64,000 nt of DNA from Hyphomicrobiaceae bacterium (lineage in GTDB: Bacteria; Pseudomonadota; Alphaproteobacteria; Rhizobiales; Hyphomicrobiaceae): positions 558,001 to 622,000 of the forward strand of contig JALHOW010000002.1 of NCBI GenBank assembly GCA_022842785.1, given 5' to 3'. Under the pieces are notes generated by a model. That model was given only the letters and a program-made list of their open reading frames with translations, ran no database searches and had not been told where the DNA came from. Shown one piece after another: positions 11,370-48,868 of this stretch; the stretch's first letter is position 1, and each line of letters begins with the position of its first letter. The position numbers and the translations under genes are program-made.

Positions 11370-13028
11370 ATGCGTCACGGCGGCAAAATCCTGATCGATC
11401 AGCTTGAAACCCAGGGCGCGTCGGCGGCCTTCACGGTGCCGGGCGAGAGCTTCCTGGCCGCCCTCGACGGCCTGCACGACTCGAACCGCATCAAGACGGT
11501 GATCTGCCGCCAGGAAGGCGGCGCGGCCATGATGGCGGAAGCCTGGGGCAAGGTCACGGGTGAGCCCGGCATCTGCTTCGTCACGCGCGGCCCGGGCGCC
11601 GCCAACGCGATGAGCGGCCTGCACGTCGCCCAGCAGGACTCGACGCCGATGATCATGTTCCTCGGCCTGCCGGGCGAGAAGCATGAAGACCGCGAAGCCT
11701 TCCAGGAGATCGAGACCAAGCAGCTCTTCTCTTCATTCGTGAAATGGGCCGCCGTGATCCGCTCGACGGCGCGCATTCCCGAGTACGTGAGCCATGCCTA
11801 TCACGTTGCCATGAACGGCAGGCCAGGCCCCGTCGTCCTCGGCCTTCCCGAGGACATGCTCTCGAGCATCGGCGAAGCGCCGGATGCCAAGCCTGCACGC
11901 TTCGCACATCCTGCGCCGAGTGCAGGCAACGTCGAGGGACTGAAGGCCGCGCTCGCCAAGGCCAAGCGCCCGATGATGATCATCGGTGGGCCCCTCTGGA
12001 GCCGCGACATCCAGAAGCGCGTCGAGGCATTTGCAGAGCGCTACGACATGCCGGTCGCGGCAGCCTTCCGCTTCCAGGACTACATGGACAACCGGCACCC
12101 GAACTATGTCGGCCATGCGGGCATCGGCCTCGACGCCAAGCTGGCGAACGCGATCAAGGGCGCGGACGTTCTGATCGTGATCGGCGCCCGCCTCGGCGAG
12201 ATGACGACATCGACCTATACGCTCGTCGACATCCCGAACCCGAGCCAATATCTCGTGCACGTCCATCCCTCGGGGAACGAGCTCGGCTCGGTCTATCGCG
12301 CCGATCTGCCGATCAATGCGACCGCTGAGACGTTCGCGCACGTCCTCGACGGGCTCGGCAAGCCGGCATCGACACCTTGGAGCGGCCTGCGCAAGGAGCT
12401 GCGGGCGACCTATGAGGACTCCCTCAAGCCACTGGCAATGCCGGGCGCAGTATCGTTTGGAGAGGTGGTCCGCACGGTCTCGGACATGATGCCGGAGAAC
12501 GGTATCGTGACCAACGGCGCCGGCAACTACGCCGGCTTCGTGCACAAGTACACGCAATACAAGGGTTACAGGAGCCAGCTCGCGCCGACTTCGGGCTCCA
12601 TGGGCTACGGCCTCCCTGCAGCGATCGCCGCCAAGCTCGCCGACCCGACACGCACCGTCGTCAACTACGCAGGCGACGGCTGCTTCATGATGACGGGCCA
12701 GGAGATTGCGACGGCCGTGCAGTATGGCCTCAACGTCATCACCATCATCGCCAACAACGGCATGTACGGCACGATCCGCATGCACCAGGAGAAGCACTAT
12801 CCGGAGCGCGTGGTCGGTACGCAGCTCGTCAATCCGGACTTCGCGGCCTATGCGCGCGCGTTCGGCGCCCACGGCGAGACAGTGGAGCGGACCGAGGACT
12901 TCAAGGCGGCATTCGAGCGGTCGCTCAACTCAGGCAAGCCAGCGATCATCGAGTGCCGCGTGGATCCCGAGGCGCTGTCTCCGCGTCAGACCCTGACCCA
13001 GGTTCGCCAATCGGGCGGCAAGAAGTAA
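11370..13028 (+). CDS. Thiamine-diphosphate-dependent enzyme, acetolactate synthase large-subunit-like
   Basis: The 552-residue protein has the three-domain TPP fold: an N-terminal pyrimidine-binding domain with the catalytic Glu at about residue 49 (CRQEGGAAMMAEAWG), a central domain (about 190-330) and a C-terminal PP-binding domain with GDGCFMMTGQEIATA and the closing NNGMYG (about 434-463). Acetolactate synthase, sulfoacetaldehyde acetyltransferase, glyoxylate carboligase and others share this fold, and no subfamily-specific residue pattern was recognised. There is no ilvN-like small-subunit gene beside it, so a role in branched-chain synthesis is unlikely. It stands alone, with a terminator-like hairpin just downstream. 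Confidence 0.85.
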   Translation: MRHGGKILIDQLETQGASAAFTVPGESFLAALDGLHDSNRIKTVICRQEGGAAMMAEAWGKVTGEPGICFVTRGPGAANAMSGLHVAQQDSTPMIMFLGLPGEKHEDREAFQEIETKQLFSSFVKWAAVIRSTARIPEYVSHAYHVAMNGRPGPVVLGLPEDMLSSIGEAPDAKPARFAHPAPSAGNVEGLKAALAKAKRPMMIIGGPLWSRDIQKRVEAFAERYDMPVAAAFRFQDYMDNRHPNYVGHAGIGLDAKLANAIKGADVLIVIGARLGEMTTSTYTLVDIPNPSQYLVHVHPSGNELGSVYRADLPINATAETFAHVLDGLGKPASTPWSGLRKELRATYEDSLKPLAMPGAVSFGEVVRTVSDMMPENGIVTNGAGNYAGFVHKYTQYKGYRSQLAPTSGSMGYGLPAAIAAKLADPTRTVVNYAGDGCFMMTGQEIATAVQYGLNVITIIANNGMYGTIRMHQEKHYPERVVGTQLVNPDFAAYARAFGAHGETVERTEDFKAAFERSLNSGKPAIIECRVDPEALSPRQTLTQVRQSGGKK

Positions 13029-13538: not shown

Positions 13539-14057
13539 TCAATAACCGAGCAGAGCCTCGATCGGCCCCTTTGGAAGCGGCACGAGGAACCACTTCTCGA
13601 ACATGAAGAAGAAGAAGATCGGCACCCCGAGAGCGACGCAGATTGAGCGGAGCACGCTCTCGCCGCCGACGAAGATCATGAACAGCACCAGGAAGCCCGC
13701 CGAGGCCGCATAGAAGCCGATGAACTGCACCGCGCCCACATAGCCTATGGCCGGGATGAGCACCGTCAGGACGCGGCCAAACGATGTGCGCGAGACGAAC
13801 GACTCGCTCAGCCCCTCGCTCTTTGCCAAAACGGCTTTCACGAGAATGGAGATGCTTGCCGAGCCCAGCACCACGGCAATGTAGAATGGAAAGTACCCAG
13901 CGCGCGGCCCCTCGCCTTCGGCCCAGCCGATACCGAGCCGCAAGCTGTCAGAGATGATGATGGCACTGACGGCGAGCAACAGCAGCGCCACCACGATTTC
14001 CATCGTCCGATTCGAGACCAGGGACCGCTCGTCCGAGGCATCACCCTGCTCGTGCAT
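13539..14057 (-). CDS. tctB: TctB, tripartite tricarboxylate transporter small membrane subunit
   Basis: The 172-residue protein has four hydrophobic segments (about 20-40, 58-76, 98-118, 122-160) and the TctB pattern of a conserved first helix (MEIVVALLLLAVSAIIISDS) followed by GPRAGYFPFYIAVVLG. TctB is the small permease subunit of the TTT family, secondary transporters that import di- and tricarboxylates with a periplasmic binding protein. The ATG is preceded by AAGGAG at good spacing. It is the last gene of the reverse-strand tctA-tctC-tctB operon. Confidence 0.9.
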   Translation of the reverse strand: MHEQGDASDERSLVSNRTMEIVVALLLLAVSAIIISDSLRLGIGWAEGEGPRAGYFPFYIAVVLGSASISILVKAVLAKSEGLSESFVSRTSFGRVLTVLIPAIGYVGAVQFIGFYAASAGFLVLFMIFVGGESVLRSICVALGVPIFFFFMFEKWFLVPLPKGPIEALLGY

Positions 14058-14083
14058 TCCGCTCTCCTTAACTGGTCAGCGCC

Positions 14084-14107
14084 CCCGCGGCGAGCCCTCG
14101 CCGCGGG
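14084..14107 (-). repeat. Intercistronic hairpin between tctC and tctB
   Basis: CCCGCGGCGAG and CTCGCCGCGGG form an 11-bp perfect stem with a 2-base loop between the tctC stop and the tctB start. No T run follows. Hairpins after binding-protein genes commonly protect the upstream mRNA and raise the ratio of binding protein to permease; here that is an inference from position. Confidence 0.7.
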
Positions 14108-14125
14108 AACCAGTTGTCTGGTGGC

Positions 14126-15154
14126 TTACTTTCCGGCCGCAAGGAAGCCCGCTTCCTTCATGAGCCCATGATGGCGCTTTTCGGCCGCCTCGACCCACTT
14201 CGCGTACTCGTCGCCGGACATGAACGTGTTGTTGAAGGCGCCCTTCTCCATGAACTCTTTCCAATCGGGTGTCTCGCGCACCTTCTTGAAGAGATCGACG
14301 TAGAAAGCGACCTGCTCCTTGGTCACGCCCGCTGGCATGAAGATACCGCGCAGCATCTGATAGTCGACGTTCACGCCCGACTCCTTGCAGGTCGGAATGT
14401 CGGACCAAGCCATCGTGTCCGTCACCTTTGACGTGTACGTGCTGCGCTTGTCGTCAAAGATGCAGAGCGGCCGAAGCCCGCCCGCACGCCACTGCGCGAC
14501 AGCCTCGATGGGATTGTTGACAGTCGAGTCCACATGCTTGCCGACCAGCTGCACCGCAACGGCACCGCCGCCCGCGAACGGCACGTACGTGAACTTCTTG
14601 CCGCCGGTCACGCTTTCGAGCGCAACGGTGATGATCTGGTCTTCCTGCTTGGAGCCAGTGCCACCCATCTTGAACTTCTTGTCATCGCCGGCCTTCACGG
14701 CCTCGATGTAGTCCTTGGCGGTCTTGTAGGGCGTCTCGGCGTTGACCCAGAGAATGAACTGATCGAGCGCCAGCATCGATACAGGGGTCAGATCCTTCCA
14801 GTTGAACGGCACACCTGTCGCCAAAGGTGTTGTGAATAGGTTCGAGAGCGTGATGATGATCTGGTGCGCATCACCCTTGCTCTTCTTGACCTCGAGGAAG
14901 CCTTCCGCTCCTGCGCCGCCCGCCTTGTTGACGACGACGATGGGCTGCTTCATGAGGTTGTGCTTACCGACAACACCCTGAATGAAGCGCGCCATCTGGT
15001 CAGCGCCACCGCCGGTGCCGGCCGGAATGATGAACGTTACCTGCTTGGTCGGCTCCCATGCGTGAGCCGGAAGAGCGGCGCCCGCGAGCAGCGTCGCGCT
15101 CGACAGGATGGCTCCTGCAATGCGGCGCCCCAGCTTCGTGCGTCGAAAGTCCAT
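14126..15154 (-). CDS. tctC: TctC-family substrate-binding protein of a tripartite tricarboxylate transporter
   Basis: The 342-residue protein is a periplasmic Bug/TctC-type receptor. It has a Tat-like or Sec signal (MDFRRTKLGRRIAGAILSSA, twin Arg at 10-11, cleavage after LPAHA) and then VTFIIPAGTGGGADQMARF, the canonical start of the mature TctC fold; ITVALESVTGGKKFTYVPFAG is also diagnostic. The ATG at 15154 was chosen over 15160 and 15262 because AGGAGG lies 8 bases before it. The gene sits between tctA and tctB. Given the oxalate genes divergent from this operon, oxalate or a related dicarboxylate is a plausible ligand, but the sequence alone does not show the substrate. Confidence 0.92.
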   Translation of the reverse strand: MDFRRTKLGRRIAGAILSSATLLAGAALPAHAWEPTKQVTFIIPAGTGGGADQMARFIQGVVGKHNLMKQPIVVVNKAGGAGAEGFLEVKKSKGDAHQIIITLSNLFTTPLATGVPFNWKDLTPVSMLALDQFILWVNAETPYKTAKDYIEAVKAGDDKKFKMGGTGSKQEDQIITVALESVTGGKKFTYVPFAGGGAVAVQLVGKHVDSTVNNPIEAVAQWRAGGLRPLCIFDDKRSTYTSKVTDTMAWSDIPTCKESGVNVDYQMLRGIFMPAGVTKEQVAFYVDLFKKVRETPDWKEFMEKGAFNNTFMSGDEYAKWVEAAEKRHHGLMKEAGFLAAGK

Positions 15155-15285
15155 TGCCATTTCCTCCTTGTTACCCGCCTCCATTTGTGAGGCTTTATTG
15201 CCGCCTTCATTTCCAAAGGCGGAATGCGCAATGCCGACTTTCACGAGCGGAGGCCGGCTCAATTCTCCCTAAGCAGCTGGCCTCC

Positions 15286-16797
15286 TTATGCAGCGGGCGC
15301 CGAGCGTGCTTGACCGAAGCGTGTCTTGATCGCGCTCGCGAGCGGCCAGAGGACCATGACGAGACCGAGCGACATGATCGACGCAACCAGCGGATTGGCC
15401 CAGAAGATGCTGAGGCTACCCTGCGAGAGCAGCATGCTCTGGCGGAACGCCTCCTCGGCCTTGTCGCCCAGCACGATCGCCAGCACCAGCGGCGCGAGCG
15501 GATACTGCAGCTTGTTGAAGACGTATCCGATCACGCCAAAGACCAGCATCATCCACACGTCGAACATGTTGTTGTTCACAGTGTAGGCGCCGATCGCGCA
15601 GATGACGAGGATAACCGGCGCGATGATCGAGAAGGGAATGCGGAGGATCGCGGCGAACATCGGCACACACGTGAGCACGACGATCAGGCCGACGATATTG
15701 CCAAGGTACATCGAGGCGATGAGGCCCCAGACGAACTCCTTCTGCTCGACGAAGAGCAACGGTCCCGGCTGCAGTCCCCAAATGAGGAGGCCGCCGAGCA
15801 GCACCGCTGCCGTCGGCGAACCCGGGATACCGAGCGTGAGCATCGGCAGAAGCGCGCTCGTTCCGGCAGCATGTGCCGCCGTCTCCGGCGCCACGACACC
15901 TTCGATCTCACCCTTGCCGAAGTTGTCGCCTCGCGGGGACATGCGCTTGGCGATGCCATAGCTCATGAACGATGCCGGCGTCGCACCACCCGGCGTGATG
16001 CCCATCCAGCAGCCGATGATGCAGCTTCGGATGGACGTCTTCCAATAGGCGAGCAGCTTCTTCCAGGTCGTCAGCACGACGCTCAGGCGCAGCTTTGCTT
16101 CCGAGCCGTGGAACTTCAGCCCATCCTCCATGGACGAGAGGATCTCTCCGATGCCGAAGAGGCCGATCACCGCGATCAGGAAGTCGAAGCCGCCGAGCAG
16201 CTGGTCGTAGCCGAACGTCATGCGGAGCTGGCCGGTGACGCCATCCATACCGACAGCAGCGAGCGCGAAGCCAAGCGCCATAGCCGCGATCGTCTTCGAG
16301 GCGCTGCCGCGCCCCATGCCGACGAAACTCGCGAATGTGAGGAAGAAGACTGAAAAGAACTCGGCTGGCCCGAATTTTAAGGCAAATCTGGCGATGATGG
16401 GCGCCAGGAACGTGATAACGACGACCGCGACGAAGGCGCCGACGAATGACGAGGTGAAGGCTGCCGTCAACGCCTCATCCGCGTTGCCCTTGCGCGCCAT
16501 CGGATGCCCGTCGAAGGTCGTCGCGACGGACCAGGGCTCGCCCGGGATGTTGAAAAGGATCGAGGTAATGGCGCCGCCGAAGAGCGCTCCCCAGTAGATG
16601 CAGGAGAGCATGATGATCGCCGAGGTCGGCGGCATGGTGAAGGTCAGCGGTAGCAAGATAGCGACGCCGTTTGCGCCCCCAAGCCCCGGTAGAACTCCGA
16701 TGATCACCCCAAGAACGATGCCGATGAACATCAGGGCTAGGTTGTAGGGGGTCAGAGCTACACCGAAGCCCTGCATCAACGATGCGATCTCTTCCAC
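15286..16797 (-). CDS. tctA: TctA, tripartite tricarboxylate transporter large membrane subunit
   Basis: The 503-residue polytopic protein has about 12 hydrophobic segments and the TctA signature GVLPGLGGANGVAILLPLTF near residues 38-57, with a second similar motif at WMGITPGGATPASFMSYG, the two inverted-repeat halves of the family. It forms the main translocation subunit of the TTT importer. The first codon is a GTG at 16797; GGAGGG lies only three bases upstream, so an internal ATG at 16776 is an alternative. It is the first gene of the reverse-strand operon, divergent from the GntR regulator, with a palindrome about 155 bases upstream. Confidence 0.93.
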   Translation of the reverse strand: MEEIASLMQGFGVALTPYNLALMFIGIVLGVIIGVLPGLGGANGVAILLPLTFTMPPTSAIIMLSCIYWGALFGGAITSILFNIPGEPWSVATTFDGHPMARKGNADEALTAAFTSSFVGAFVAVVVITFLAPIIARFALKFGPAEFFSVFFLTFASFVGMGRGSASKTIAAMALGFALAAVGMDGVTGQLRMTFGYDQLLGGFDFLIAVIGLFGIGEILSSMEDGLKFHGSEAKLRLSVVLTTWKKLLAYWKTSIRSCIIGCWMGITPGGATPASFMSYGIAKRMSPRGDNFGKGEIEGVVAPETAAHAAGTSALLPMLTLGIPGSPTAAVLLGGLLIWGLQPGPLLFVEQKEFVWGLIASMYLGNIVGLIVVLTCVPMFAAILRIPFSIIAPVILVICAIGAYTVNNNMFDVWMMLVFGVIGYVFNKLQYPLAPLVLAIVLGDKAEEAFRQSMLLSQGSLSIFWANPLVASIMSLGLVMVLWPLASAIKTRFGQARSAPAA

Positions 16798-16952
16798 ATT
16801 CCCTCCGCAGACCAGCCTTCCGCCCTAAAGCGGGGAACAAGGTGCGCGGATCTCAGACCCTCGTGCCTCTTAACCCCACCCTGCCCGTCGTTGCGGGCTC
16901 ATCCTCCAGAGCTAGGTTTTTCCTGCTCCACCATTCGAAGGATGCTTTATTT

Positions 16953-16962
16953 TGGCATACCA
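16953..16962. promoter_or_regulatory. Candidate GntR operator, tctA side
   Basis: TGGCATACCA is 9/10 identical to the perfect palindrome TGGTATACCA at 17196 and lies about 155 bases upstream of tctA. GntR/FCD regulators commonly bind short palindromes of the type TGGTnnACCA or TGTATACA. Assignment is by pattern and position only. Confidence 0.5.
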
Positions 16963-17195
16963 TATACCCCTTCTAAGCAGCGTGACAAGAAGTCACCTAC
17001 GCAGGCGCAACGAGATATTCCGCCGTCGTTGCGGCGGCGCAAAATTGCTGGTGTCGAAGTCTCATTAGTTTCGCAATTATGGGGGTTTCTGCGTGTTCCT
17101 TTGTGCGATCGATTCGCATCAAGCTGGTACTCGGGCTCGGTACTTGTACGCATGTGCACCATAGGGGACTTGAACAGGCCATATCGAGCGATCTA

Positions 17196-17205
17196 TGGTA
17201 TACCA
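17196..17205. promoter_or_regulatory. Candidate GntR operator, regulator side
   Basis: TGGTATACCA is a perfect 10-bp palindrome about 50 bases upstream of the chosen GntR start, a place that suits autoregulation and control of the oxalate genes. A one-mismatch copy at 16953 near the divergent tctA promoter strengthens the case. Confidence 0.55.
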
Positions 17206-17253
17206 GAAACCACAGCGGGCCTGCGGTTGCTGCGCGTCTCATCAGCGACCCAA

Positions 17254-17955
17254 ATGCAGGGTGCACTTTTGTCAGATACTCAAATCCGAATCGCCCCGAT
17301 CGTCGAGAGCCTGAGCCTCAAGGCCAAGGCCTACTCCGCGCTCAAGTCTGCGATCATGCAGATGAACATCTACGACAACAACGCCGAGCTGAAGCTGGAC
17401 GAGCGCGACCTCTCGGCGCGTTTCGGCGTATCGCGCACGCCGCTCAGGGAAGCCCTTGCCCAGCTCGATTCCGAGGGGCTCGTGCGCATCGTACCGCGCA
17501 AGGGCATCTTCATCGTCCGGCGCACGAAGGCCGAGATCCTCGAGATGATCACGGTGTGGGCGGCGCTCGAGAGCATGGCCGCGCGCCTCGCGACGAAGGA
17601 AGCGACCGACGAGGAACTGGCCAGCCTGCACGATCTCGTCGACACGTTCTCGACCGACAAGGTCGCCGCGACCATGGGCGAATACTCGGACGCGAACATC
17701 CGCTTCCATCAGGCGATCATCAAACTCAGCAAGTGCGGGCTCATCGCCGAAATGACGGAAAGCCTGTTCTTCCACGTCCGCGCCATTCGTCAGCGCACGA
17801 TCTTCGAGGATGACCGCGCAAAGCGCTCGATCATCGATCATAGGGAAATCGTCGCCGCCCTCGAGGCGCGCGGCGCCGACCGCGCAGAGCGGCTGGTGCG
17901 TGAGCACACGCTCAAGCTACGCGATCACGTCGAGCGCTTCGTCGATATCGATTGA
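17254..17955 (+). CDS. GntR-family (FCD subfamily) transcriptional regulator
   Basis: From the ATG at 17254 the product has 233 residues: an N-terminal winged helix (AYSALKSAIMQMNIYDN, then LDERDLSARFGVSRTPLREA and GLVRIVPRKGIFIVRR) and a C-terminal all-helical FCD ligand-binding domain with the conserved metal-site type pattern FHQAIIKLS and DHREIVAALEARGADRAE. FCD regulators sense small organic acids. The start was placed here because the upstream open frame is not protein-like and contains the candidate operator. It is divergent from tctA and 72 bases upstream of oxc on the same strand, so it probably controls both units. Confidence 0.9.
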   Translation: MQGALLSDTQIRIAPIVESLSLKAKAYSALKSAIMQMNIYDNNAELKLDERDLSARFGVSRTPLREALAQLDSEGLVRIVPRKGIFIVRRTKAEILEMITVWAALESMAARLATKEATDEELASLHDLVDTFSTDKVAATMGEYSDANIRFHQAIIKLSKCGLIAEMTESLFFHVRAIRQRTIFEDDRAKRSIIDHREIVAALEARGADRAERLVREHTLKLRDHVERFVDID

Positions 17956-18027
17956 CGCCCATACCGGGCGGGAATGAACGGGTTCAACGAACTCCGAATA
18001 ACCAACAAGTGCGTGGAAGGGAGCGAA

Positions 18028-19767
18028 ATGTCCGCAACTGCACAAAACACTGACGCAAACGCGGCCGCGGGCGAGCAAGAGCTGACCGACGGCTTCAATC
18101 TGATCATCGATGCGCTGAAGCTGAATGGCCTCGAGACGATCTATGGCGTGCCCGGCATCCCGATCACCGATTTTGGTCGCATGGCACAGGCCTCGGGCAT
18201 TCGCGTCATCTCTTTCCGCCACGAGCAAAACGCCGGCTATGCGGCGTCGATCGCCGGCTTCCTGACCAAGAAGCCCGGCATCTGCCTCACGGTGTCTGCG
18301 CCGGGCTTCCTCAACGGCCTCACCGCGCTCGCGCACGCGACGACCAACTGCTTCCCGATGATCCTGATCTCAGGCTCGTCCGAGCGTGAGATCGTCGATC
18401 TCCAGCAGGGCGACTACGAGGAGATGGATCAGCTCGCGATCGCCAAGCCGCTGTGCAAGGCCGCCTATCGCATTCTGCACGCGCAGGACATCGGCATCGG
18501 CATTGCACGCGCGATCCGCTCGGCGGTCTCGGGCCGTCCTGGCGGCGTCTATCTCGATTTGCCGGCCAAGCTCTTCGGCCAGGTCATCAATGCCGAGATC
18601 GGCCGCAAATCGCTCGTCAAAGTGATCGATGCGGCACCCGCGCAGATCCCGGCACCGGACGCGATCAAGCGCGCGCTCGACGTGTTGAAGGGCGCCAAGA
18701 AGCCGCTCATCATCCTCGGCAAGGGCGCCGCTTATGCCCAGGCCGACGACACGATCCGCGCCTTCGTCGAGAAGAGCGGTGTGCCCTTCCTGCCCATGAG
18801 CATGGGCAAGGGCCTGCTGCCCGATACGCACCCGCTGTGCGCCGGCGCTGCGCGCTCGACCGTGCTCAAGGACAGCGACGTCGTCATGCTGATCGGCGCG
18901 CGCCTGAACTGGCTGTTGTCCCACGGCAAGGGCAAGACATGGGGCGACGCGCCGAAAAAGTTCATCCAGATCGACATCGAGCCGCGCGAGATGGATTCGA
19001 ACATCGAGATAGTGGCGCCGGTCGTTGGTGATATCGGCTCATGCGTCTCGGCACTGCTCGACGGCATGGATACGATGTGGCCCGCGCCGCCGGTTGAATG
19101 GACAGGCTCTGTCGCCAAGAAGCGCGACGAGAACGTCGCCAAGATGGCGCCGCGCCTGATGAACAACAACAGCCCGATGGACTATCACGGTGCTCTCGGC
19201 GTGCTGCGAACAGTCATCAAGGAGCGCCCTGACGCCATCCTCGTGAACGAAGGCGCCAACACGCTCGATCTCGCGCGCGGCATCATCGACATCTATCAAC
19301 CGAGAAAGCGCATCGACGTCGGTACGTGGGGCGTCATGGGCATCGGCATGGGATACGCCATCGCCGCAGCCATCGAGACCGGTAAGCCTGTGCTCGCAGT
19401 CGAAGGCGACAGCGCGTTCGGGTTCTCCGGCATGGAGGTCGAGACGATCGCTCGCTACAATCTGCCGGTATGCATCGTCATCTTCAACAACGACGGCATC
19501 TATCGCGGCACCGACGTCAACAAGGGCGGCGATGATCCCGCGACGACAGTGTTCGTCAAGGGCGCGCGCTACGACAAGATGATGGAAGCGTTCGGTGGCG
19601 TCGGCGTGAATGCAACCTCGCCGGACGAGCTACGGCGCGCCGTCAATGCCGCAATGGACTCCGGCAAGCCGACGCTCATCAACGCCGTTATCGACCCCGC
19701 TGCCGGCAGCGAAAGCGGCCGCATCGGTAATCTCAATCCGCAAAGCGCGCTGTCCAAGAAGAAGTGA
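18028..19767 (+). CDS. oxc: Oxalyl-CoA decarboxylase
   Basis: Oxalyl-CoA decarboxylase is a TPP enzyme converting oxalyl-CoA to formyl-CoA and CO2 in the cytoplasm. The 579-residue product has the family sequence around the catalytic Glu ([17 protein letters not shown], Glu at about residue 66), the Oxc-typical [20 protein letters not shown] and [15 protein letters not shown], and the TPP motif [16 protein letters not shown] closing with NNDGIYRG (from about 459). The start at 18028 has GGAAGGGAG upstream; a longer frame starts at 17974. Only 11 bases separate it from frc, which, with the specific Oxc segments, makes this assignment stronger than for the two other TPP enzymes in the window. 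Confidence 0.96.
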
Positions 19768-19778
19768 GGGAGGGTACC

Positions 19779-21056
19779 ATGAAAGCGCTCGCAGGCGTTC
19801 GCATTCTCGATTTCACGCACGTCCAGTCCGGCCCGACGTGCACACAGCTCCTCGCATGGTTCGGCGCCGACGTGATCAAGGTCGAGCGCCCCGGCACGGG
19901 CGACATCACGCGCGGCCAGCTGCAAGACATTCCCAAGGTGGACAGCCTCTACTTCACGATGCTGAACCACAACAAGCGCTCGATCACGCTCGACACCAAG
20001 AACAAGACGGGCAAGGAAGTGCTCGAGCGTCTGATCAAGACGTGCGACGTGCTCGTCGAAAACTTCGGGCCTGGCGTGCTCGACCGCATGGGCTTCCCAT
20101 GGGAGACCATTCACCAGCTCAATCCGCGCATGATCGTCGCCTCGATCAAGGGCTTCGGTCCCGGCCCCTTCGAGGACTGCAAGGTCTACGAAAACGTCGC
20201 GCAGTGCACGGGCGGCGCCGCCTCGACGACCGGCTTCCGCGATGGTCTACCGCTGGTGACGGGCGCGCAGATCGGGGACAGCGGCACCGGCCTGCACCTC
20301 GCCCTCGGCATCGTGACGGCGCTCTACCAGCGCACGCACTCGGGCAAGGGCCAGCGCGTGACCTGCGCCATGCAGGACGGCGTGCTGAATCTCTGCCGCG
20401 TGAAGCTGCGTGATCAGCAGCGTCTCGACCACGGCCCGCTCACTGAATACAGCCAGTTCGGCGAAGGCGTGCCGTTCGGCTCGGCCGTGCCACGCGCCGG
20501 TAACGACTCAGGCGGCGGCCAGCCCGGCCGCATCGTGAAGTGCAAGGGTTGGGAGGGCGATCCCGACGCCTACCTCTATTTCATCACGCAGGCGCCCGTC
20601 TGGGAGAAAATCTGCGACGTCATCGGCGAGCCGACCTGGAAGACCGATGAGAATTTCGCGACCCCGAAGGTCCGTCTGCCGCGGCTCAACCAGATCTTCG
20701 AGCGCATCGAGCAGTGGACGATGACGAAGACGAAATTCGAGGCGATGAACATCCTCAACGAGTTCGACATCCCCTGCGGGCCGATCCTCTCGATGAAGGA
20801 GCTCGCCGAGGACCAGTCGCTCCGCGCCACGGGCACTGTCGTCGAGGTCGATCATCCGACGCGCGGCAAGTACCTCTCGGTCGGCAATCCGATCAAGCTG
20901 TCGGACTCACCTGCCGACGTGAAGCGCTCGCCCCTACTCGGCGAGCACACTGAGGAGGTGCTGCGTGACGTGCTCGGCTACTCACTCGACGAGGTGTCTG
21001 CCATCAAGGCCTCGGGGGCAACCGAACCACCACAAAAGCGCGCTGCAGCGGAATAG
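19779..21056 (+). CDS. frc: Formyl-CoA:oxalate CoA-transferase
   Basis: Frc is a class III CoA-transferase that moves CoA from formyl-CoA to oxalate, regenerating oxalyl-CoA for Oxc and releasing formate. The 425-residue protein begins [20 protein letters not shown], has [15 protein letters not shown], and carries the catalytic Asp at about residue 167 in [17 protein letters not shown], equivalent to Asp169 of the Oxalobacter enzyme. A Gly-rich loop and the [20 protein letters not shown] segment also match Frc. GAGGGAGG precedes the ATG; an earlier GTG at 19764 overlapping the oxc stop was rejected. The length and direct linkage to oxc make the specific function likely over generic CaiB-like enzymes. 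Confidence 0.95.
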
Positions 21057-21145: not shown

Positions 21146-22081
21146 ATGCGTATCGTCGTCCATGGCCAAGAGGCCTTCGGCAAAGCAGTCCTCGAGAAGC
21201 TACTCGAGCGCGGTGAAAATGTCGTGGCGGTGTGCTGCGCGCCCGACAAGGCCGGCCGCCCGGAAGATCCGCTCAAGGTACTCGCTGCCGAGAAAGGTCT
21301 TCCCGTTCACCAGCCCAAGAGCTGGAAGACGCCGGAAGCCCTCGAGCTGATGAAGTCCTTCAACGCGGACGTCTGCCTCATGGCCTACGTCCTGCTCTTC
21401 ATTCCGCAGCCCGTACTCGACGCGCCGCGGCTCGGCACCTTCCAGTACCATCCGTCGCTGCTACCAGCCCATCGCGGTCCTTCGTCGATCAACTGGCCGA
21501 TCGCTATGGGCAAGACGCGCACCGGCCTCACGATCTTCTGGCCCGACGAGGGCTTGGATGAGGGTCCAGTCCTCATCCAGAAGTCCATCGAGGTTGGTCC
21601 GGACGAGACGCTCGGCGACGTCTATTTCAAGAAACTCTTCCCCATGGGCGTCGATGCCATGATGGAAGGCCTTGATCTGGTGAGGGCCGGTGTCATCCTC
21701 AAGCATAAGCAGGATCTCACCGCGGGCTCCTATGAGAGCTGGTTCAAGAAGGATCTCGCCGAGCTCGACTGGTCGAAGCCCGTCGCCGAGAACTACAACA
21801 TCATCCGCGCGGCGAACCCCGCGCCCGGCGCCTGGACTACGCTCAAGGGTGCCAAGCTCGATATCTACGACGCCGCGCGCAGGGGCGGGAGCGGCAAGCC
21901 CGGCCAGGTGCTCGCGATCACCGATGAAGGGATCACGATTGCCGGCAACGGCGGCGCAATCCTCGCGAAGCGCGTCAAGACACCTGAAACGAAGAAGATC
22001 AGCGCTGCTGAGTGGGCAAAGTCGGTCGGCCTCGCGGTCGGCGACATCTGCTCTGCCCCGCAGCCCAAAGCGCCTGCCTGA
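21146..22081 (+). CDS. Stand-alone formyltransferase resembling the hydrolase domain of 10-formyl-THF dehydrogenase
   Basis: The 311-residue protein is a formyl_transf_N/C enzyme. Residues 1-200 carry YHPSLLPAHRGPSSINW (His at about 102) and LTIFWPDEGLDEGP (Asp at about 138); their 36-residue spacing equals that of His106/Asp142 in the hydrolase domain of ALDH1L1-type 10-formyltetrahydrofolate dehydrogenase, and later segments (LDWSKPVAENYNIIRAANP, PGAWT) also follow that enzyme. The Asn of Fmt-type enzymes two residues before the His is replaced by Gln (100). There is no C-terminal aldehyde dehydrogenase domain. Lying 89 bases after frc and 130 before fhs, it probably handles the formyl group of formyl-CoA or 10-formyl-THF; the exact reaction is unproven. 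Fmt is an unlikely alternative in this context. Confidence 0.85.
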   Translation: MRIVVHGQEAFGKAVLEKLLERGENVVAVCCAPDKAGRPEDPLKVLAAEKGLPVHQPKSWKTPEALELMKSFNADVCLMAYVLLFIPQPVLDAPRLGTFQYHPSLLPAHRGPSSINWPIAMGKTRTGLTIFWPDEGLDEGPVLIQKSIEVGPDETLGDVYFKKLFPMGVDAMMEGLDLVRAGVILKHKQDLTAGSYESWFKKDLAELDWSKPVAENYNIIRAANPAPGAWTTLKGAKLDIYDAARRGGSGKPGQVLAITDEGITIAGNGGAILAKRVKTPETKKISAAEWAKSVGLAVGDICSAPQPKAPA

Positions 22082-22211: not shown

Positions 22212-23888
22212 ATGGCCGTCAAATCCGACATCGAAATTGCCCGCGAAGCCAAAAAGAAGCCGATCCAAGAGATCGGTTCCCGCCTCGGCATCGGCAGCGA
22301 ACACCTTCTGCCCTTCGGCCACGATAAGGCGAAGGTCTCGGCCGAGTTCATCAAGTCACTCGAGAGCCGCAAGGACGGCAAGCTGATCCTCGTCACCGCG
22401 ATCAACCCGACGCCCGCGGGCGAAGGCAAGACGACCACGACGGTCGGCCTCGGCGACGGTCTCAATGCGATCGGCAAGAAAGCCGCGATCTGCCTGCGCG
22501 AGCCTTCGCTCGGTCCCTGCTTCGGCATGAAGGGTGGCGCCGCCGGCGGTGGCTATGCCCAGGTCGTGCCCATGGAGGACATCAACCTCCACTTCACCGG
22601 CGACTTCCACGCGATCACAAGCGCGCACAACTTGCTCTCGGCGCTGATCGACAATCACATCTATTGGGGCAATGCGCAGAACATCGACACGCGCCGCGTT
22701 GCCTGGCGCCGCGTCATGGACATGAACGACCGCGCGCTGCGCGAGATCGTCTGCTCGCTCGGCGGCGTGGCCAACGGCTTCCCGCGCGAAGCCGGCTTCG
22801 ACATCACGGTCGCGTCCGAAGTCATGGCGATCCTCTGCCTCGCGACGGACATCGCTGATCTCGAGAAGCGCCTCGGCGACATCATCATCGCCTACCGTCG
22901 CGATCGGAGCCCCGTCTACGCTCGCGACATCAAGGCCAACGGCGCCATGACCGTGCTGCTCGCGCAGGCCATGCAGCCGAACCTCGTGCAGACGCTCGAG
23001 AACAATCCGGCCTTCATTCACGGCGGCCCGTTCGCGAACATCGCGCACGGCTGCAACTCGGTGGTCGCGACGAAGACCGCGCTGAAGCTCGCCGACTACG
23101 TCGTGACCGAGGCAGGCTTTGGCGCCGATCTCGGAGCTGAGAAGTTCTTCGACATCAAGTGCCGCAAGGCGGGCCTTACGCCGGCCGCTGCGGTCATCGT
23201 CGCGACCGTCCGCGCGCTCAAGATGAACGGCGGCGTCAAGCGCGAGGATCTCGGCACCGAGAACGTCGATGCCGTGAAGAAGGGCCTGGCAAACCTCGGC
23301 CGCCACATCGAGAACGTGAAGAGCTTCGGCGTTCCTGCCGTCGTCGCGATCAATCACTTCATCTCGGATACCGACGCCGAGATCGCCGCGGTTCAGGAAT
23401 ACGCCAAGTCGCAGGGCTCGGAGGCATTCCTGTGCAAGCACTGGGCACAGGGCTCGAAGGGCATCGAGGCGCTCGCCCGCCGTGTGGTCGAGATCGCCGA
23501 TTCCGGCACGTCGAAGTTCGCGCCGCTCTATCCGGACGAGATGGGTCTGCTCCAAAAGGTCGAAACGATCGCGAAGAAGATCTACCGCGCTGGCAGCGTT
23601 GCGGCCGACAAGAGCGTCCGCGACCAGCTCAAGACGTGGGAGGATATGGGCTACGGCAATCTTCCCATCTGCGTGGCGAAGACGCAGTACTCGTTTACCA
23701 CGGATCCCAACCTGCGCGGCGCGCCAGTCGATCACGTTGTGCCGATCCGCGAGGTGCGTCTCTCGGCCGGCGCCGGCTTCATCGTCGCCATCTGCGGTGA
23801 GATCATGACGATGCCGGGCCTACCGAAGGTTCCAGCCTCCGAGACAATTCGCTTCAACGAAGCAGGTCAGATCGAGGGGCTGTTCTAG
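22212..23888 (+). CDS. fhs: Formate-tetrahydrofolate ligase
   Basis: Formate-THF ligase (also ftfL) activates formate with ATP to give 10-formyl-THF. The 558-residue protein shows the P-loop [19 protein letters not shown] (about 67-85), [41 protein letters not shown] and the C-terminal [20 protein letters not shown], all standard for the family, and the usual length. It is the last gene of the forward oxalate cluster and is followed by a strong terminator. Its place behind oxc-frc links oxalate-derived formate to the folate C1 pool for assimilation or biosynthesis, as in methylotroph-like metabolism. Confidence 0.97.
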
Positions 23889-47077: not shown

Positions 47078-47242
47078 TCTCGGCCGCGGCGACCTCATGC
47101 GTCGGCGCTGTCATGCGCCGCGCGTAGGTCGTCGCGCGATGCTCACCATTCAAAGCATCCGGCTGGCGTGATACCGGTCGGCGCTCTATCAGCACTGCGC
47201 CCGAACAACGGGCGCACCGCCGCACGGGAAGGAACGCCGGTC

Positions 47243-48868
47243 ATGGCCGACACGATCAGGGGCGCGGACGTCGTCGCGCGCACGCTGGAGCAGCTTGGGA
47301 CGCAGAAGGTCTTCACGCTCTCCGGCAATCACATCATGTCGATCTTCGACGCCGCGCTCGAGACGAAGCTCGAGCTGATCCATGTGCGCCACGAGGCAGC
47401 GACCGTCCATATGGCCGATGCCTGGGGGCGTCTCACGGGCGAACCGGGCATTGCGATGGTGACCGGAGGGCCGGGCCACGCCAATGCCGTCGGCGCGCTC
47501 TATACGGCCCACGCGAACGAGTCGCCCATGGTGCTGCTCTCGGGTCATGCCGCAACGGATGAGCTCGGCCGCGGCGGCTTCCAGGAGATCGCGCAGGCCG
47601 ACATGGCCCGCCCGGTCGCCAAGGCTTCATGGACGTCGACCTCGGCGGCCTCCCTCGGCGAGGACGTCGCCAAGGCCCTGCATATCGCCAAGAGCGGCCG
47701 GCCTGGGCCGGTGCACCTAAGTCTCCCCTCCGACCTGCTCGACGCGGAAGTCGAAGCCTCCAGCACATTGATCCCTGGTCCTCAGCCCGCCACGACAGCA
47801 GCCGCACTCCCCGACGCGCTGGCTGATGTTGTGCTCGAAGCGATCGGCAAGGCCCAAGCGCCGCTGATCATAGCAGCGCCTCATCTCTCCGGGCCCCACG
47901 GCCGACCGCTCCTCGCCGAACTCGAGAGAGCGGTGCAGGCCCCGGTCGTCATCATGGAGAGCCCGCGCGGCATTCGCGATGCGACGCTCGGCTCATTTTC
48001 GGAGCTGCTCAAGCAGACCGATCTGATCGTGCTCCTCGGCAAGCCGCTCGATTTCACACTCAAGTGGGCCGAGCCGCCTGTCGTCGCGCCGACATGCCGT
48101 CTGATCAGCATCGATCCCGAGCCGGCGCTGATAGCCCGCGCGCAGAAGGAGCTCGGCAGCCGTCTTGCGCTGGCGGTACTCGCCGATGCGCGCAGCGCCG
48201 TGCGCTCGCTCACGGAGCGTGGGCGCAAGACCACGCCGCGCGCAGGAACATGGCTCACCGAAGCACGCCGCCTGCTCGATCATCGCCCCGAAAGCTGGGC
48301 GACGCTGAAGGGCAAGAACGGCCGCCTCCACGCCGTCGAAGTCTTCAAGGCACTGAAGCCGATCGTCGAGCGCGATCCGAAGACCGTGCTCATCTGCGAC
48401 GGCGGTGAGTTCGCGCAATGGGGGCAAAGCCTGATCAAGCCGCCGCGCCGGATCGTAAATGGCGTCGCCGGGTCGATTGGTGCCGGCATCCCGTTCGCGG
48501 TGGCGGCGCGCGCCTGGGAACCGAAGGCGCCGATCATCACCGTCATCGGCGACGGGACGTTCGGCTTTCACATGTCGGAGTTCGACACGGCTGTGCGGCA
48601 CAATCTGCCATTCGTCGCGATCGTCGGCACCGATGCGATGTGGAATGCCGAGAGCCAGATCCAGCTTCGCGACTACGGCGCCCAGCGCATGCACGGCTGC
48701 AGCCTGCTGCCGACGCGCTACGACCAGGTGGTCACGGCGCTCGGCGGTCATGGCGAGCTGGTCGACGATGCTGCCGCACTTCCGGCCGCCATCGAACGGG
48801 CCATTGCCTCGGGTAAGCCCGCCTGCGTCAATGTGATGATCGAGCCCATCGCGGCACCGGCGATTTGA
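47243..48868 (+). CDS. TPP-dependent enzyme, acetolactate synthase-like
   Basis: The 541-residue protein has the three-domain TPP fold with catalytic Glu in HVRHEAATVHMADAWG (about residue 51), a middle domain around LPDALADVVLEAIGKAQAP, and the PP motif GDGTFGFHMSEFDTA (from about 434). The usual NN of the motif end is replaced by GTDAMWNAE, so it is not a standard acetolactate synthase. The ATG at 47243 has GGAAGGAACG upstream; a longer frame from 47168 is rejected. No ilvN is present. Function within the decarboxylase/carboligase group is open; the upstream hydratase gene suggests a 2-oxo-acid substrate. Confidence 0.83.
   Translation: MADTIRGADVVARTLEQLGTQKVFTLSGNHIMSIFDAALETKLELIHVRHEAATVHMADAWGRLTGEPGIAMVTGGPGHANAVGALYTAHANESPMVLLSGHAATDELGRGGFQEIAQADMARPVAKASWTSTSAASLGEDVAKALHIAKSGRPGPVHLSLPSDLLDAEVEASSTLIPGPQPATTAAALPDALADVVLEAIGKAQAPLIIAAPHLSGPHGRPLLAELERAVQAPVVIMESPRGIRDATLGSFSELLKQTDLIVLLGKPLDFTLKWAEPPVVAPTCRLISIDPEPALIARAQKELGSRLALAVLADARSAVRSLTERGRKTTPRAGTWLTEARRLLDHRPESWATLKGKNGRLHAVEVFKALKPIVERDPKTVLICDGGEFAQWGQSLIKPPRRIVNGVAGSIGAGIPFAVAARAWEPKAPIITVIGDGTFGFHMSEFDTAVRHNLPFVAIVGTDAMWNAESQIQLRDYGAQRMHGCSLLPTRYDQVVTALGGHGELVDDAAALPAAIERAIASGKPACVNVMIEPIAAPAI

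Follow-up and report, generated by a model that had tools for sequence, protein, structure and literature searches.

A stand-alone formyltransferase in a bacterial oxalate operon may connect formyl-CoA with the tetrahydrofolate pool

What is a formyltransferase doing between frc and fhs in an oxalate operon? The window analysed here is the whole stretch of 64,000 nucleotides from a Hyphomicrobiaceae bacterium, and it holds a same-strand run of a GntR/FCD regulator, oxc, frc, a formyltransferase gene (its product is called FT below) and fhs. Bacterial oxalate breakdown and the 2-hydroxyacyl-CoA lyase pathways both centre on formyl-CoA, and 2-hydroxyacyl-CoA lyases are in use for building synthetic C1 assimilation. 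The three genes of the OXC-Frc oxalate pathway with Fhs are all present in the window. As described in the available portions of the literature, however, that pathway has no folate-linked exit from formyl-CoA, and FT would add one if our reading is right. With modest confidence we propose that FT is a formyl-CoA:tetrahydrofolate N10-formyltransferase feeding one-carbon metabolism. Among the observations behind this reading, FT tracks the enzymes that make or probably make formyl-CoA, it groups with the hydrolase domain of ALDH1L1, and it has residues in common with ALDH1L1 and HypX.

The formyltransferase and its operon

The FT reading frame is intact, starts with ATG and encodes 311 amino acids (Table 1). 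A Pfam search of the 311-aa protein found Formyl_trans_N (residues 1-161) and Formyl_trans_C (201-293) and nothing else. Thus FT has no aldehyde-dehydrogenase domain and no acyl-carrier domain, and the protein stops at 311 aa without the enoyl-CoA-hydratase-like C-terminal domain of the HypX type. His102 and Asp138 are 36 residues apart, and Gln100 takes the place of the Asn of Fmt. All this agrees with the original prediction, which had also rightly placed the gene between frc and fhs in an oxalate operon. In this run frc overlaps oxc by 4 bp, and the gaps are 89 bp between frc and FT and 130 bp between FT and fhs. Upstream and divergent from the operon lie the genes of a tripartite carboxylate transporter, TctABC (13539..16797, minus strand). 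About 145 residues precede the GntR domain in the regulator frame, so its true start probably lies further inside the listed frame. The window also contains two further thiamine-enzyme genes, one of them adjoining TctB.

Table 1. Genes of the oxalate operon and other features of the window (positions counted from the first letter of the window)
Feature	Position	Strand	Evidence
Further thiamine enzyme, PRK08199 subfamily	11370-13028	+	826 bits, cut-off 539
TctB, tripartite carboxylate transporter	13539-14057	-	PF07331
TctC, tripartite carboxylate transporter	14126-15262	-	PF03401
TctA, tripartite carboxylate transporter	15286-16797	-	PF01970
GntR/FCD regulator, 5' of operon	16891..17955	+	PF00392 146-208, PF07729 218-339
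oxc, oxalyl-CoA decarboxylase (OXC), makes formyl-CoA	17974..19767	+	TIGR03254 1022 bits, cut-off 739
frc, formyl-CoA:oxalate CoA-transferase	19764..21056	+	TIGR03253 736 bits, cut-off 504
FT, stand-alone formyltransferase	21146..22081	+	His102, Asp138, Ser104, Gln100, HPS and RGPS motifs
fhs, formate-tetrahydrofolate ligase	22212..23888	+	NF010030 939 bits, cut-off 652
Another thiamine-enzyme gene	47168-48868	+	about 200 bits against the OXC model

Is FT merely one of the well-known formyltransferases? It scores 144.5 bits against the Fmt model TIGR00460 (cut-off 201.5), 139.7 against PRK06988 (316), 112.5 against the ArnA model (777), 44.1 against the PurN model (150.1) and 17.9 against the PurU model (285.95), and passes no curated cut-off among the NCBIfam models matched. 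The source genome has five proteins with a Formyl_trans_N domain, FT included. Three of the others, all encoded away from FT, pass as Fmt (263.3 bits, cut-off 201.5), PurN (227, cut-off 150) and PurU (333, cut-off 286), and FT is therefore an extra protein. Likewise, 27 of the 29 related genomes with FT have a second, Fmt-like match. PurU has the Formyl_trans_N domain in common with FT, but a PurU-like deformylase was rejected on the score of FT and the presence of a proper PurU elsewhere in the genome. The fifth protein (L005, contig C5) has a formyltransferase-like N-terminal domain on an open frame of 1595 aa, which by eye looks like a non-ribosomal peptide synthetase that includes a formylation domain.

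Nearest kin of the formyltransferase

Among solved structures, the sequence nearest to FT is the ALDH1L1 hydrolase domain (E 5e-54), and Fmt comes next at 5e-44. The main tree has 41 rows, made up of 33 of the 90 FT rows, two of ALDH1L1, five of Fmt, and ArnA. FT and the ALDH1L1 hydrolase domain are separated there from Fmt and ArnA with support 100/100. Hence, in the phylogeny that had been proposed as a check, FT falls with ALDH1L1 and shows no clustering with Fmt, but the rejection of the rival grouping of FT with Fmt is marginal (p-AU 0.049). ALDH1L1 is placed inside FT in the same tree with support 81/29, which is not firm. This main split recurs in a quick tree of 101 rows (SH-aLRT 100), where HypX falls on the side of FT and ALDH1L1, on a branch too long to trust. 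The fold does not separate the families: the AlphaFold2 model of FT (mean pLDDT 92.3) aligns in VIA-align with Z of 31-33 to both Fmt and ALDH1L1, Fmt being nominally first.

His102, Pro103, Ser104, Ser113, Trp117, Asp138 and Tyr160 are invariant in all 90 aligned FT rows. At position 100, 77 of these rows have Gln and the other 13 have Cys. The four Fmt rows compared and ArnA all have Asn at this position, two residues before the catalytic His, and no FT row of the 90 does; the equivalent is Ile in ALDH1L1 and Val in HypX. FT, ALDH1L1 and HypX have in common HP(S/G), Ser113, Trp117 and one residue after Tyr160 that is missing from the Fmt and ArnA rows. Note that Trp117 also occurs in one Fmt and in ArnA, so it is no exclusive mark. 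Thus FT has the features of the ALDH1L1 hydrolase-type N domain, that is, the His, Ser and Asp triad with no Asn, together with the HPS and RG(A/P)S motifs. It differs from ALDH1L1 in lacking the acyl-carrier and aldehyde-dehydrogenase domains and in standing in bacterial operons, and the identity is 33-35%. HypX, which serves CO synthesis for NiFe hydrogenase, is 20-26% identical to FT and has an enoyl-CoA-hydratase-like domain, thought to release CO, that FT lacks.

These kin suggest what kind of acceptor or donor might be involved. According to the available portion of one paper (PMC6802093), the ALDH1L1 hydrolase domain takes formyl from 10-formyl-THF and loads it onto the phosphopantetheine thiol of a carrier, and the N-terminal domain of HypX is proposed to pass formyl from 10-formyl-THF to CoA, a proposal for which its authors say that direct experimental results are still lacking. 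For the nearest kin of FT the reaction therefore involves, or is proposed to involve, a pantetheine thiol, and by analogy FT may use one too. As a separate observation, an enoyl-CoA-hydratase-like gene lies divergent beside FT at two loci (L040:1236-2033 and L104:6110-6955); it recalls the second domain of HypX and may be there by chance.

Could FT instead be another N-formyltransferase, acting on initiator tRNA, a sugar or an amine, which came into the operon by chance? It has the fold of Fmt and ArnA and the Formyl_trans_N/C domain pair of Fmt, and the record of plasmid pLA6_002 names the gene fmt_2. We nevertheless consider this highly improbable, since every NCBIfam model matched leaves FT under its cut-off, the genome has a separate Fmt over the cut-off as most FT relatives seem to, the Asn of the amine formylators compared is absent throughout the family, and the gene context is conserved. 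An ordinary or duplicate Fmt was rejected on the score, the replaced Asn, the tree position and the separate Fmt gene. Annotation as an extra Fmt, as in that one record, may hide the FT family.

Genomic partners of the formyltransferase

Which genomes have FT, and what accompanies it? Among 60 related genomes, 29 carry an orthologue with at least 47% identity and at least 308 bits; the match ranking next falls to 152 bits with 35% identity, and one partial match reaches 40%. OXC is above its cut-off in 22 of the 60 and present as fragmentary, sub-cut-off matches in two more (G001, G032), and all 24 have FT. A second thiamine enzyme, which we label ThDP8 and whose nearest solved kin are 2-hydroxyacyl-CoA lyases, was found in seven relatives, six of them with FT. 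Taken together, all 29 FT genomes have OXC (24) or ThDP8 (the other five), while the 31 relatives without FT have OXC in none and ThDP8 in one (G025). The association gives a Fisher p of 5e-16, a value that ignores relatedness among genomes that are not independent. In a phylum-wide sample of 398 genomes, FT was found in ten, all at 352 bits or more with the next protein at 237; OXC passes its cut-off in nine of these, and the remaining one (G351) carries ThDP8. The co-occurrence with oxc that had been suggested as a check is thus borne out, with ThDP8 as a second partner. The same sample contains 20 genomes with OXC and without FT, or 21 counting one fragment. FT is therefore an addition to formyl-CoA metabolism and unnecessary for oxalate use. 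The family is widespread among bacteria, nearly always in genomes with actual or probable makers of formyl-CoA. The FT on one contig labelled Rubripirellula (Planctomycetota; L060) closely resembles the FT of a Filomicrobium bin (L066), and the contig is probably misbinned.

Gene order was read in 80 named loci, the best 80 of 570 confirmed, which therefore lean toward close relatives; many of them are from metagenome bins. Neighbours were picked from open reading frames, and the next gene was taken as one on the same strand less than 600 bases away. The genes usually run regulator, thiamine enzyme, CoA-transferase, FT, Fhs, and the regulator and TctABC recur beside the operon in other loci. 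Directly 5' of FT, the 78 of these best 80 of 570 loci with more than 600 bases on that side have an Frc-type CoA-transferase in 63, ThDP8 in two, a regulator in one and another gene in 12. Directly 3', among 68 loci of the same best 80 of 570, Fhs follows in 43, a fused Fhs in two, a Usp-domain protein in one and another gene in 22; Fhs is thus next or fused in 45 of 68, and at least one of the others (L051) is a cut-off Fhs. Such recurrence puts the association of FT with the operon beyond chance.

Not every locus follows this order. Fifteen of the best 80 of 570 have no CoA-transferase, OXC or ThDP8; among these, L117 and L119 are contig ends with Fhs, and L069 and L079 have OXC elsewhere in the genome. 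In 11 (L095, L100, L103, L104, L115, L116, L120, L121, L127, L128, L129) FT stands alone. OXC lies elsewhere in three of these 11 genomes (in two pieces in one of them), ThDP8 in four and a sub-cut-off OXC-like protein in two, and the remaining two (L103, L129) show nothing clear. So the random context that would have spoken against the original prediction was not seen, but 11 of the best 80 of 570 loci do lack the operon setting. At two of them (L095:8777-9900 and L100:8712-9853) a two-subunit thiamine enzyme resembling sulfopyruvate decarboxylase, under model cut-offs, lies immediately 5' of FT; the pair was annotated in L095.

What, then, is ThDP8? OXC was found in 32, ThDP8 in 28 and neither in 20 of the best 80 of 570 loci, and since ThDP8 is nearly as frequent as OXC, an oxalate-only role of FT was rejected. 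The enzyme occupies the place of OXC, 5' of the CoA-transferase. The nearest solved structures of one representative are actinobacterial 2-hydroxyacyl-CoA lyases (E 7e-74), followed by a lyase-like protein, an entry named oxalyl-CoA decarboxylase (4e-65), benzaldehyde lyase and E. coli OXC (2e-46). The representative is under every NCBIfam cut-off listed (341 of 600 for NF058623 and 425 of 587 for PRK05858), and in an alignment of 22 ThDP8 and 13 OXC rows ThDP8 misses the C-terminal ESGR stretch of OXC. An actinobacterial 2-hydroxyacyl-CoA lyase makes formyl-CoA, according to the accessible text of PMC7176365. ThDP8 probably does so as well. Operons in which ThDP8 (for example L036:6452-8200; the others fall within L050-L129) replaces OXC beside an Frc-type CoA-transferase, often with TctABC, likely represent an undescribed carboxylate pathway.

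The relation to Fhs is looser. On the one hand, FT and Fhs share one open frame in four of the 29 FT relatives (G010, G013, G015, G033). On the other hand, four genomes of one genus, all 100% complete (G222, G274, G363, G451), have OXC and FT with no Fhs match anywhere; an operon of OXC, two CoA-transferases and FT was read in three of them, and in the fourth OXC and FT are about 3 kb apart. Among 30 FT genomes searched, chosen mostly because Fhs did not adjoin FT, Fhs is present in 23; the seven without it are the four just named, G437, and the L114 and L128 bins. Genomes with OXC and FT and without fhs indicate that the constant partner of FT is OXC or ThDP8, whereas Fhs is frequent but dispensable. 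In L136-L138, from a genus with genomes of 1.7-2.1 Mb where no fhs was found, two Frc-type CoA-transferases precede FT, and the second may use another CoA donor.

These patterns bear on the suggestion, made as one branch of the original prediction, that FT is a 10-formyl-THF hydrolase balancing the folate pool, or else a THF-assisted formyl-CoA hydrolase, in either case releasing formate. The best solved match of FT is a hydrolase domain, and since 1963 no gene has been assigned to the activity of formyl-CoA hydrolase (EC 3.1.2.10), as stated in the available part of a 2023 oxalotrophy survey (PMC10192776). Yet the genome already has its own PurU, the family tracks OXC or ThDP8 rather than Fhs, and a hydrolase beside Fhs, above all fused to it, would burn ATP in a futile cycle. 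This branch thus finds little support, and we regard a hydrolase role as improbable.

Direction and setting of the formyl transfer

How might the transfer proceed? OXC, or in other genomes the lyase-like thiamine enzyme, would release formyl-CoA, and FT, by means of His102 and Asp138, would take the formyl group off the CoA thiol and place it on N10 of tetrahydrofolate, giving 10-formyl-THF and free CoA. Formate freed by Frc would join the same folate pool through Fhs. The C1 unit on folate would then go into serine and biomass, or Fhs running backwards could yield ATP. What the analysis shows directly is the gene and its family, the kinship and catalytic residues, the co-occurrence, the gene order and the fusions. 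In this scheme we infer the substrates, the production of formyl-CoA by the lyase-like enzyme, the main direction (from CoA to folate) and the physiological role. The forward direction is suggested by two loci with ThDP8 and FT and no CoA-transferase in reach (L107, L114) and by the genomes without fhs.

The original prediction had supposed that passing formyl between formyl-CoA and THF would save ATP. Frc spends the formyl-CoA thioester in activating the next oxalate. The thioester is thus already conserved by Frc, any formyl-CoA diverted to folate needs replacing, and a saving of ATP is not automatic. It would arise only if the thioester were made without ATP, for example as oxalyl-CoA from glyoxylate, which the available portion of PMC7486775 proposes as possible for Cupriavidus necator. 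Hence the transfer itself is supported by co-occurrence, the ALDH1L1 grouping and the residues, but a general saving of ATP is not. Moreover, where Frc is present, formyl-CoA lost to folate would mean too little CoA thioester for the cycle, and this counts against a fixed CoA-to-folate direction.

Then could FT work the opposite way? As the main rival, FT would move formyl from 10-formyl-THF to CoA. FT and Fhs would then together serve as a formyl-CoA synthetase driven by ATP, priming or refilling the Frc cycle, for example where glyoxylate formation draws off oxalyl-CoA. Thioesters usually make the better formyl donors, which speaks for the forward direction, and the fusions of FT with Fhs fit the reverse too. 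An adjacent Fhs-FT pair in a genome without OXC and with ThDP8 elsewhere (L142) would suit the reverse, as would the ketopantoate-reductase-like genes in the pLA6_002 cluster and in the source genome. HypX is proposed to work in this way (PMC6802093) and a need for priming has been proposed for E. coli YfdE (PMC3720670), both in the available portions of those papers. What speaks against it is that no fhs was found in the four complete genomes with OXC and FT, nor in at least two others of that kind (G437 and the bin of L128), and that at L107 and L114 the locus has no CoA-transferase to consume formyl-CoA. On balance we hold the reverse direction to be rather unlikely.

Returning to transfer from formyl-CoA to folate, how far might it extend beyond the oxalate operon? 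We are evenly divided on the wider proposal that FT founds a family of thiol-type formyltransferases joining the formyl-CoA and tetrahydrofolate pools. Such a family would offer an exit from formyl-CoA in several pathways (oxalate, 2-hydroxyacyl-CoA). Together with Fhs, to which it is fused in some species, it would form a reversible formyl-CoA/formate/ATP converter. The fold and the type of thiol formyl transfer are known, while the enzyme and its pathway link are apparently unassigned: among the matches listed from open-licence full-text literature, in the portions available, no formyl-CoA/folate formyltransferase was found outside the HypX N-terminal domain. If the proposal is true, it supplies a concrete gene for an exit from formyl-CoA, a natural path from there to biomass and serine, and a component for C1 engineering.

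A broader setting is seen on plasmid pLA6_002 of Paracoccaceae strain La 6, whose FT is 48% identical to that of the window. The cluster comprises formate dehydrogenase, ppc, SucCD-like genes, a regulator, oxc, frc, FT and fhs, and also a Usp protein, TctC-, TctB- and TctA-like genes, a ketopantoate-reductase-like gene, glyA, an aminotransferase (593 bits against BhcA, cut-off 650) and hprA. In a loose reading, ppc, glyA, the aminotransferase and hprA presumably suit a serine cycle on oxalate, which would be a consumer of 10-formyl-THF. In the source genome, a ketopantoate-reductase-like gene with 55% identity to that of the plasmid lies about 67 kb away from FT, and we take both genes to be kin of enzymes in M. 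extorquens and C. necator. These enzymes of the two species act on glyoxylate/oxalyl-CoA, as given in the accessible part of PMC7486775. The idea that the SucCD-like genes encode an oxalate-CoA or malate-CoA ligase was unsupported: SucC of pLA6_002 (L134) scores 580 bits against the succinate-CoA ligase model, over the cut-off of 370, and 516 against the malate-CoA ligase model, short of the cut-off of 604. In the source genome, matches to the SucC-like protein near the operon of L036 have only 36-37% identity, and that protein is itself barely over the succinate-CoA ligase cut-off (383 against 370).
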